Source: Terriglobia bacterium
GTDB taxonomy: Bacteria; Acidobacteriota; Terriglobia; Bryobacterales; Bryobacteraceae
DNA: 64,000 nt
Assembly: GCA_020073265.1 (NCBI GenBank)
Contig: JAIQFN010000003.1
Coordinates: 62,001-126,000, forward strand
Direction of reading: 5' to 3'
Made by a program: the position numbers and the translations under genes. Of the stretch, positions 20,737 to 40,200 are shown in pieces. Under the pieces are notes generated by a model. It had not been told where the DNA came from. It made no database searches and was given only the letters and a program-made list of their open reading frames with translations. Each line of letters starts with the position of its first letter. The stretch's first letter is position 1.

Positions 20737-21270
20737 TTACGGCAGTGCCGCCAGCAAGGCTTCAACGGGCGCGTTGTCGCCGAAAGTCTGGCTGATGTGC
20801 GCGTAGCGGTCCAGGTTGCCCGGGCCGAATACAAAACTACCGCCGAGCTGAAACGGATTCTTGCCGGTACGATGCTGGCGGAATCCGCCTTTCTGCGCGC
20901 GCTTGCGGGCCACGCCGTTGTCGGAGCGGAATAGGTGGAGCAGATTGGCGGATTTCAGGCCCACGCTGCGATAGGCCTGGCGGTGCGCATCGATCAGCAG
21001 CGGGAACTGGATGCCAGTCTCTTCGCGGAACTGAGCGGCGTAGCGTGCATCGCCCAGACCGATGGCCGCGACTTTGGCGCCGCGCGCCTCAAAATCCGCT
21101 TGGTGCTCGCGCAACTGCGCGATGTGCTCGCGGCAGAAGAGTCACCCGTAGTGGCGCAGGAAAACGATCACCGCGGGAGTTGCTTCCCACAGCGAGCCGA
21201 GGCGGATGCTGGCTCCATAGGAGTCGGGCAAGGCGATGCCGGCCAGGGTTTGACTCAGAGTTGAAGCCAC
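20737..21270 (-). CDS. Peroxiredoxin-like (AhpC/TSA_2 family) protein with in-frame TGA at the redox CxxC: candidate selenoprotein
   Basis: Reading from GTG 21270, one continuous frame of 178 codons is interrupted only by a TGA at codon 43 (21142-21144). The protein before it ends TPAVIVFLRHYG; after it comes LFCREHIAQLREHQADFEAR. In the AhpC/TSA_2 (PRXL2-like) family this position is the first Cys of the G-C-x-x-C-R-E redox motif, so the TGA replaces exactly the active-site residue, giving U-L-F-C. The downstream part (KVAAIGLGDARYAAQF, FPLLIDAHRQAYRSVGL, GGSFVFGPGN) keeps the family pattern with no other lesion. A 6-bp hairpin lies 20-35 nt after the TGA. Selenocysteine insertion is inferred; simple TGC-to-TGA decay is the alternative. 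Confidence 0.75.
21107..21122 (-). promoter_or_regulatory. Candidate bacterial SECIS hairpin
   Basis: On the coding strand UCGCGC-AGUU-GCGCGA forms a perfect 6-bp stem with a 4-nt loop. The loop begins 26 nt after the UGA at 21144-21142 and has a G in its second position. Bacterial SECIS elements are hairpins just downstream of the UGA with a G in the first two loop positions, so spacing and form fit. GC-rich coding sequence can form hairpins by chance. Confidence 0.5.
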
Positions 21271-37297: not shown

Positions 37298-40200
37298 GCT
37301 GTTTCGATTACTGGTGCTGTTCGCCGCGGCCGCCGCCGGGTTGAGCCAAAGCGAGAACGAGCCGTACTTCTCGCTCTCCAGCTTCCGCACCTTCGGCTCG
37401 AACGGGAAGCCGCAAGTGGGACTCAGCGCGTGGAACGTGGATTCGCTGGAGTTCCGCCTGTATCGCATCCAGGACCCGCTGAAGTTCTTTCAGCAGATCG
37501 AGGACCCGCACCAGTTCGGCGGGCGCGCGCCGCAGCCGCCTCGCGAGCGAACACTGCTGGAGCGAATCCACATCTGGAAGCACGCTCTGCGGACGGACAT
37601 CCGGCGATCGCTGCGCGCGCAATTTAACGAACCGCCCAGCGCGCATTTTGAGAGCTTGTTCCCGCGCCAGTCCAAGCCGGGCCCGGCCAGCAAGGAAACG
37701 CAATACGCCGAAGCGCCGGTGTTGAACTCGCAGCAACTGGTGTTGTCGTTCGTGCAGCCGGTCCGCAGCCGCACTCGCTGGGATCGTCAAAACGTGGACC
37801 TGAACGTCCGCGACAAAGGCGTGTACCTGGTGGAGGCCGTGCGGAAGGACCTGCGCGCCTACACGCTGCTGATCGTTTCCGACCTGGTGATGATCAGCAA
37901 GACCGGCGACGGCCGGATCGTCAACCTGGTGGTGGACCGCAACACGGGACAACCGCTCGAAGGGGTGAGCATCGCGATGCTCACCAAGGACGGCGAGGCC
38001 GGCAGCGCGCAGACCAACGGCGACGGAATCGCCGAGCTGCGCTGGTCGGCGGTGAAGGAAGGCGGCCTGCGCCTGGTGGCGCGCAACACCCGCGATGTCG
38101 CGGTCAATATTATTCCCACCGGATCCTCCGGCCCCAATGCCGACCAGTGGAACGGCTACATCTACACCGACCGCCCGGTGTACCGTCCCGGCCACACCGT
38201 GCACTTCAAGGGAGTGCTGCGTTTGCGCAAGCCCGACGGCTACCTGATTCCGGCCGGTCGCAGCGTCAACGTCGAAGTGAACGACTCCGATCAGAAGCCG
38301 GTGTACCAGAAAACGCTCACGGTGAGCGCGAACGGCACCATCCACGACGACATCACGCTGGCGCCATCCGCCACGCTGGGCAACTACTACATTCAAGCGA
38401 AATCGGGCGATGGCTTCATGAGCGGCAACTTCGAGGTCCAGGAGTACAAGAAGCCGGAGTACGAAGTTCGCGTCACGCCCGCCAAGCCGCGCGTGCTCCA
38501 GGGAGAAAACGTGCAAGCCATTGTCGACGCGCGCTACTACTTCGGAGAGCCGGTGAGCGGGGCCAAGGTGAAGTACACCGTGTACCGCCAGCGTTACTGG
38601 TTTCCCTTGTGGTACGACTCGGACGAGTCGTTCCAACCGTCCACGCCCGATGATTCCGACGACGCCGGCGATCAGGTGGGCGAACAGGACGGCCAGCTCG
38701 ATGCCGACGGCAAGCTGACCGTCAACATCCCAACCTCGGTTTCCGACCACAAGTTCGACTACGTTTATCGCGTGGACGCGCGCGTTACCGATGCGGCCAA
38801 TCGCGAGATCACCGGCTCGGGCTGGGTTCTGGCCACTTATGGCAGCTTCGCGCTGAACGTCTCGCCGAAGCAGTATCTCTACGCGCCCGGAAGCAAAGCG
38901 GCGTTCACCGTTCAGGCGCGCGACTACGACAACAAGCCGGTGAGCACGCGCGTCCACGTCGAATTGCTGCAATGGAATTTCAAGGACACGCGCAAGTCGC
39001 AGGTGAAGGGCGCGACGGACGTCACGCTGGGCGCCGAGGGCTCGGCCGATGCGAGCTTGGACATTCCCGCGCAAGGTGGAACCTACCTGGTGCGAGTGAG
39101 CGCGCACTCGCCGGAAGGCCGCGATCCGGAAGCGAGCTCATATCTGTGGGTCTCCGGCAGCGGTGGGTGGAACGTGGATCAGGGCGCGAACGAGGCCGTG
39201 CAGATCATCCCGGATCAAAAAGTTTATCGCGCCGGCGATACGGCCAAGCTTCTGATCGTCACCGGCCAGGCGAACACGCCGGTGCTGGTCGCGGTGGAAG
39301 GGCTGGACATCCGCCAGCACAAGCTGCTTCGCTCGCAGGACGCCACCGTTTCGTTCGACGTCCCCATTGCCGCGAGCGACGAGCCGGGTATTAGTGTCAC
39401 GGCCGCATTCGTGCGCAACGGCGTCTTTCACAGCGGGTCGAAGTACCTCAAGGTTCCTCCGGCGCAACACCAGTTGAACGTGAAGCTCACCACGGACAAG
39501 CCGCAATACCTGCCCGGCCAGACGGCCGAGTACAGCATCGACGTTTCCGGCGCGGATGGGAAACCCGTGCCGCGCGCGGATTTGAGCCTGGGCGTAGTGG
39601 ACGAAGCGATCTATGGAATCCGCCGCGACATGACTGAGGACATCCTCACGTTCTTCTACGGTCACGATTACAATCGCGTGTACACCGACAGCTCGCTCGA
39701 ATATTATTTCAACGGCGAGGCGGGCAAGCGGCGGATGCGTCTGGCCGAGCTGCGTCCGCCTTCGCGCCTGGCGCAACTGAAGCCGGAGCGGCTGGTTCAG
39801 GCGAAAATCCGCAAGGCTTTTCCGGATACGGCGTTTTGGGCCGCGGATGTGACGACCGATGCGTCCGGACACGCGCGGGCCAAAGTCGAATTTCCCGATT
39901 CGCTCACCACCTGGCGGGCCACCGCGCGCGCCGTCACGCCCGAAACGAAAGTGGGGGGCGCGGTCCTCAAGACCATCGTGCGCAAGAATCTGATCCTGCG
40001 TCTGGCGGTGCCGCGGTTCTTTGTTCAAGGCGACGAGGTGTTGATCTCGGCGCTGGTCCACAATTACCTGACGGACGAAAAAACGGCGCGGGTGTCGCTG
40101 GATGTTCAGGGGCTGGAAGTCCTGGAAGGCGCGACCAAGGACGTCAAGATTCCCAGCCGGGGCGAGGCCAAGGTGGACTGGAAGGTCCGCGCCGGCCAGG

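Follow-up and report, generated by a model that had tools for sequence, protein, structure and literature searches.

An in-frame UGA predicted to be read as selenocysteine in the UxxC centre of a SelL-related protein from a Terriglobia bacterium

Does the TGA that interrupts a redoxin-like frame in a Terriglobia bacterium end translation, or is it read as selenocysteine (Sec)? The frame lies on the minus strand, from 21270 to 20737, of the window, which is the whole 64,000-nucleotide stretch of DNA analysed here, and comprises 178 codons, that is, 177 residues and a TAA. GTG is its only ATG, GTG or TTG start, and three further codons follow the upstream stop. Re-reading of this strand bore out the original prediction of a frame broken by one TGA between FLRHYG and LFCREHIAQL: the sole in-frame stop is the TGA of codon 43 (21144-21142), in the context FLRHYG-U-LFCREH, and the TGC of codon 46 (21135-21133, minus strand) encodes Cys46, so that a Sec at codon 43 would occupy the first position, and Cys46 the second, of a UxxC motif in G-U-L-F-C. 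Downstream in the same frame, a TTG-started open reading frame (ORF) spans 125 residues, and annotation of the UGA as a stop would presumably leave a 125-residue fragment or a pseudogene at this locus. On comparative sequence evidence, the stop is almost certainly reread as selenocysteine at the redox centre of the protein.

Family membership of the read-through protein

The read-through protein scores 130.5 bits against NF040769, the NCBIfam model of the "SelL-related redox protein" (SelL_rel_redox; cut-off 120), with residues 12-175 covering positions 6-172 of the 173 in the model. It also reaches 59.7 bits with AhpC-TSA_2 (PF13911), well over the cut-off of 27 and in agreement with the earlier assignment to the AhpC/TSA_2 (PRXL2-like) family, as well as 53.7 bits with AhpC-TSA (PF00578) and 34.5 bits with Redoxin. 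Ten relatives, which include UxxC, UxxU, UxxA, and Cys forms, score between 109.6 and 175.3 bits with NF040769. A Cys homologue (L028), a UxxU relative (L080), and L081 lie at 172-175 bits, L026 (115.4) and L089 (109.6) fall below the cut-off, and the branch of the window is situated near the edge of the model.

The description of the gene as "peroxiredoxin-like" holds for the family and does not imply peroxidase activity; the centre is a UxxC of the CxxC type, as in PGF synthase. The canonical peroxiredoxin active site, PxxxT(S)xxC, is absent from the window protein, which reads HYGULFC at this place. In an alignment with a peroxiredoxin-type paralogue carrying T-P-G-C (L052), U43 falls on the Thr of TxxC and C46 on its Cys, and these columns point to a UxxC centre of the CxxC type. 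The motif of SelL is UxxU; the two Sec residues of SelL proper, as in ULPU, are not found in the window protein, in which codon 46 is TGC.

Conservation of the UGA and its agreement with the Sec machinery

Five close orthologues (L024-L027 and L030, the last from the same genus as the window genome) are 59-71% identical to the window protein in alignment A1, and in all of them, as in the window (6/6), codon 43 is TGA and codon 46 is TGC. The Cys homologue L028 is 38% identical. A profile made from the window protein and the five orthologues was searched against 396 genomes from the window's phylum and yielded 25 matches in 24 genomes, the window itself included; at exactly the column of codon 43, TGA is found in 24 of the 25 and Cys in one, a count that is bound to a threshold of E <= 1e-20. 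Three of these 24 TGA matches also have TGA at position 46 and are therefore of the UxxU form. In the phylum to which G455, the source of L024, belongs, the same search covered 395 genomes and gave 14 matches, L024 included, all 14 with TGA, and in six of them Cys46 is replaced by Ala (five) or Ser (one).

Looser thresholds add remoter Cys homologues (L031-L039, L041, L042, and L044) with open frames of 200-339 codons; other remote redoxins, for example L048, L053, and L057 with Thr at the column, lie under the profile threshold. After the removal of duplicates (L061, which is the window, L029; L060, the same as L025; and L085, which is L024) and of paralogue loci (L040, L043, L045, L047, and L052), the family holds TGA in 41 distinct rows, the window included, and Cys in 14. 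The exchange of Cys and Sec that was anticipated at the UGA column is thus seen directly in the homologue alignment, and the recurrence of TGA at one column in 41 distinct loci agrees with the earlier argument that a stop at this very residue is not there by chance. No residue other than Sec or Cys stands at position 43 in the retained family rows, and position 46 of the Sec rows is C, U, A, or S. Scattered stops of the kind expected in a family of pseudogenes were not seen among the homologues, which have one TGA at the same column; the sole extra stop, a TAG found in L077 at -35, possibly lies upstream of the true start.

Between the window and the five orthologues, codons +1 to +128 show an identity of 58-70% and a dN of 0.24-0.35, with a dS of 1.04-1.35 in four of the five comparisons, the fifth being not computable. 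These substitution rates indicate that the frame 3' of the UGA is protein-coding and that selection on the protein continues there. A tree of the 41 Sec and the 14 Cys rows, 55 in all, requires a minimum of 3 Sec/Cys changes, compared with 12.7 when the labels are shuffled, and places the window inside a 12-row, all-Sec branch with a support of 100/99; the tree is midpoint-rooted, and so silent on the direction of the Sec/Cys change, and its bootstrap is not fully settled.

The draft genome that contains the window comprises 6.41 Mb in 131 contigs, with 98.18% completeness and 3.34% contamination. The machinery that the original prediction called for was found in it, with selB at 384.6, selA at 442.6, and selD at 376.5 bits, all above their cut-offs, and a tRNA-Sec at 76 bits with the anticodon TCA (UCA) assigned by ARAGORN, although these genes sit on contigs other than the window's in a draft with that level of contamination. 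A second tRNA-Sec candidate above the cut-off, at 48.1 bits, is a tRNA-Ser. The cut-off of the tRNA-Sec model (47) is exceeded in 5 of 14 control genomes, and matches near 47 bits mean little; because the cut-off is lax, the case for a Sec system is built jointly on the 76-bit score, the UCA anticodon, and the three protein genes. The selD gene itself (L018:1408-2433, minus strand, on contig C85 of the window genome, G000) is likewise interrupted by an in-frame TGA, in AAGUASK, and its product is likely to be a selenoprotein as well.

The form of the gene was compared with the machinery in 16 genome records, namely 10 of the 24 genomes from the phylum search, G003, and the five genomes behind L024-L028. 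In the 14 Sec-form records, which represent 13 distinct assemblies as G378 and G456 have identical match places and are seemingly one assembly, tRNA-Sec scores 67.2-77.8 bits and selA is over its cut-off at 439-579 bits. In the two Cys-form genomes, G432 and G454, the best tRNA-Sec scores are 46.7 and 43.9 bits, both below 47, and selA gives 22.2 bits or nothing. The Sec form therefore coincides with the machinery, and the Cys form with its lack, in 16 of the 16 records tested, G454 being scored on its Cys-form copy.

These data bear on the possibility of a pseudogene, in which a nonsense mutation would end translation after 42 residues. UGA is a standard stop, and the TTG-started ORF of 125 residues downstream in the same frame would suit such a reading. 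However, the TGA is shared by the five close orthologues and by 41 distinct loci of the family, selection is detected on both sides of it, and the Sec form tracks the presence of the Sec machinery, which together make a nonsense mutation very unlikely and favor the insertion of Sec.

The candidate SECIS hairpin and the decoding of UGA

Bacterial SECIS elements (bSECIS) are characterized by an apical loop 16-37 nt from the UGA and a G within the first two loop positions. The hairpin that was originally described 20-35 nt past the UGA (21122-21107, minus strand) is present: a 6-bp stem, UCGCGC/GCGCGA, closes an AGUU loop (21116-21113) with G at loop position 2, and 25 nt lie between the UGA and the loop, in accordance with this pattern. 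As a bacterial SECIS, it is insignificant by single-sequence folding and backed by comparison across rows. For the window alone, the z value is -1.12, with 32 of 200 shuffles folding equally well, and it is -1.62 against synonymous recodings, a test in which single rows range from -4.87 to +1.36. Loose SECIS criteria are reached by 9-55% of recodings, so that conformity with them proves little, and comparative tests were used because the window alone gives no significance.

Alignment A3 contains 28 of the 41 Sec rows, ungapped, the other 13 being later loci from the search of the G455 phylum; the hairpin statistics describe these 28 rows only, and the UxxA and UxxS loci and L098 are without the AGTT loop. 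Across A3, a 7-bp stem is paired in 81.6% of its cells, compared with 70.6% after shuffling. Changes on both sides occur at 6 of the 7 stem pairs (shuffled mean 3.5, with 12 of 500 shuffles as high) and in 19 cells (6.7 after shuffling, with 0 of 500 as high), although the rows are related and the shuffle figures are thus not probabilities. The covariation is 0.353 in place and 0.034-0.116 when the stem is slid along the alignment. As the protein is conserved at the hairpin too (AQLRE), the rows were recoded synonymously 2000 times. At least six contiguous pairs are found in 18 of the 28 rows (null mean 1.1, maximum 6), and the AGTT loop is found in 23 of the 28 (null mean 2.6, maximum 8). Measured against these recodings, the conservation of the predicted hairpin exceeds the demand of the protein sequence. 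The codon usage in the loop region is also biased, as the Leu at U+10 is encoded by TTG in 21 of the 25 Sec genes that have Leu there, compared with 53 of 521 other Leu codons, and in one of nine Cys genes (L028).

The hairpin is not uniform across the family, which provides 28 aligned candidate SECIS hairpins in all. Minimum free energy (MFE) folding gives no qualifying hairpin in three of 33 folded rows (L065, L076, and L081), and in five of the 28 rows (L073-L076 and L078) the shared stem is missing its innermost pairs. Hairpins in another register that conform to the loose criteria occur at 25 nt in L073, at 21 nt in L074 and L078 (3 pairs only), and at 17 nt in L075. RNAalifold recovers only 4 pairs from A3, in which the rows of other register are forced into one alignment. 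The five UxxA loci (L086-L090) and the UxxS locus (L092) have kept Sec, lost the second Cys, and have no AGTT loop at this place.

The Cys homologue L028 (4073-4120) still has CAG TTG, with the AGTT loop closed by a stem of 4 bp, and neither selA nor tRNA-Sec was found over the cut-off in its genome; its hairpin is perhaps a fossil SECIS, a relic of a change from Sec to Cys. The same AGUU apical loop is present in another small redoxin (L040 and L045, WUPFC), at 16 nt past the UGA rather than 25.

Read-through of UGA occurs in bacteria, and codon 43 might accordingly be decoded by a near-cognate tRNA or as Trp instead of as Sec. Such decoding is extremely improbable at this locus: Cys occupies the position in each of the 14 retained family rows that lack the TGA (the dropped paralogues of TxxC type have Thr), selA, selB, selD, and tRNA-Sec are all present, the hairpin is conserved, and four of the orthologous genes (L025, L026, L027, and L030) themselves terminate in TGA. 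An error in the sequencing or assembly of a TGC or TGT Cys codon, for which the draft state of the assembly and the existence of Cys homologues (L028 and L068) might be cited, has a negligible probability, as the same TGA is found in orthologues from other assemblies. The insertion of Sec to give a UxxC centre, as originally proposed, is supported by the machinery, the TGA of the orthologues, and the comparative analysis of the putative hairpin.

Predicted fold, mechanism, and known relatives

An AlphaFold2 model built on six sequences, with Cys standing in for Sec, has a mean pLDDT of 89.7 and a pTM of 0.87, and residue 43 directly precedes a helix formed by residues 44-55. The top match among solved folds is human prostamide/PGF synthase (9usa, a C44S/C47S double mutant; Z 22.4, 1.6 A over 158 residues), followed by peroxiredoxins of the Bcp, PrxQ, and AhpE types with Z of 18-20, among which the wild-type synthase (9us9_A) also lies, at 18.4. 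The same enzyme (PDB 9us9 and 9usa), which we take to be PRXL2B/FAM213B, also ranks first among solved structures in the profile search (E 3.4e-11). The profile alignment places U43 and C46 on C44 and C47, at 22% identity, with Cys in the human enzyme where the window has Sec.

The product of the gene is thus very probably a selenoprotein with a thioredoxin fold, of the SelL-related, AhpC-TSA_2 (PRXL2-like) type, a Sec-containing relative of both SelL and human PGF synthase, into which Sec would be inserted at UGA-43 through SelB and the AGUU hairpin. SelB carrying Sec-tRNA(UCA) would bind the AGUU-loop hairpin, which starts 20 nt past UGA-43 within the coding sequence, and Sec would be inserted at the UGA in place of termination. 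The attacking nucleophile is likely to be Sec43, with which the active-site helix begins; in the family rows position 43 is always Sec or Cys and in Sec rows position 46 is variable, a pattern which suggests that Sec43 attacks and that C46 or an outside thiol resolves. In the window protein, Cys46 would be likely to resolve Sec43 as an Se-S bond, and a thioredoxin-type donor would then reduce the bond. The substrate is probably a peroxide or a disulfide, and ten chosen neighbour proteins, whose families vary from locus to locus, give no clue to it. No signal peptide is seen by eye in the window protein, which is probably cytosolic.

Selenoproteins of the broad family are already known, and the gene adds a UxxC member beside the UxxS and UxxU forms in print. 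The accessible text of one survey lists 119 selenoprotein families and subfamilies, among them AhpC/TSA of cd02970 with UxxS and Prx-like PF00578 with UxxC or UxxU (PMC13188914), and pfam13911 is named with UxxS in the accessible part of another (PMC9312934). The AhpC/TSA selenoprotein of these reviews shares the Pfam family and a Sec in UxxX with the window, and one UxxS row (L092) occurs here; compared by description only, it is UxxS in the parts consulted, whereas the window is UxxC. In the text available, SelL is a Prx-like protein of prokaryotes and eukaryotes (PMC2398784), and a table row names a "ULPU-containing selenoprotein" (PMC5029168). Three relatives in the present set have ULPU or ULLU at the site; SelL/ULPU has UxxU, whereas the window has one Sec with Cys in second place, the ULPU protein being compared by its description in that table. 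The Prx-like thiol:disulfide oxidoreductase of PF00578 (UxxC/UxxU), which appears in the available lists of PMC1794560 and PMC13188914, is likewise Prx-like and shares UxxC with the window; the oxidoreductase is again compared by description, and the window is slightly nearer to PF13911 (59.7) than to PF00578 (53.7).

NF040769 does not appear in the family table of PMC13188914 (2026), and neither this accession nor a bacterial PRXL2 with selenocysteine was found in the literature searched. The available text of PMC12013277 names one Acidobacteriota test genome, and such a family is absent from it. A UxxC branch of PF13911 as such was not found in the main texts of a literature with few subscription papers, and an earlier account of it may exist. 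A tentative wider reading, held with somewhat less than even confidence, is that the RHYGUxFCRE-type branch of 12 rows is an all-Sec group unlisted in the reviews, with a near-invariant AGUU bSECIS at fixed spacing that recurs at 16 nt in the L040/L045 redoxins, and with Cys forms where the machinery has been lost, the loop of L028 being fossil-like. If the recurrence of AGUU across two families is real, it would suggest that SelB favors a single loop in these bacteria. The family lends itself to the questions of what the enzyme gains from Sec and which RNA loop is read by SelB.

Loose SECIS-like hairpins accompany 13 TGA codons in the window, that at 21142-21144 included; the other twelve were judged by eye, except for one at 39140 (minus strand). 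The latter TGA separates two open stretches in one frame, 392 and 609 codons long, and has a SECIS-like hairpin, but neither side matches Pfam, and the arrangement is probably due to chance. At gathering scores, Rfam reports only a tRNA in the window. Elsewhere in the genome, on contig C48 of G000, a redoxin of about 348 residues with a DsbD_N domain (L059:835-1881, minus strand) has a TGA in SADWUPYC; among its relatives, one-TGA matches of similar open-frame length recur, and this type is probably a second selenoprotein family of the group.
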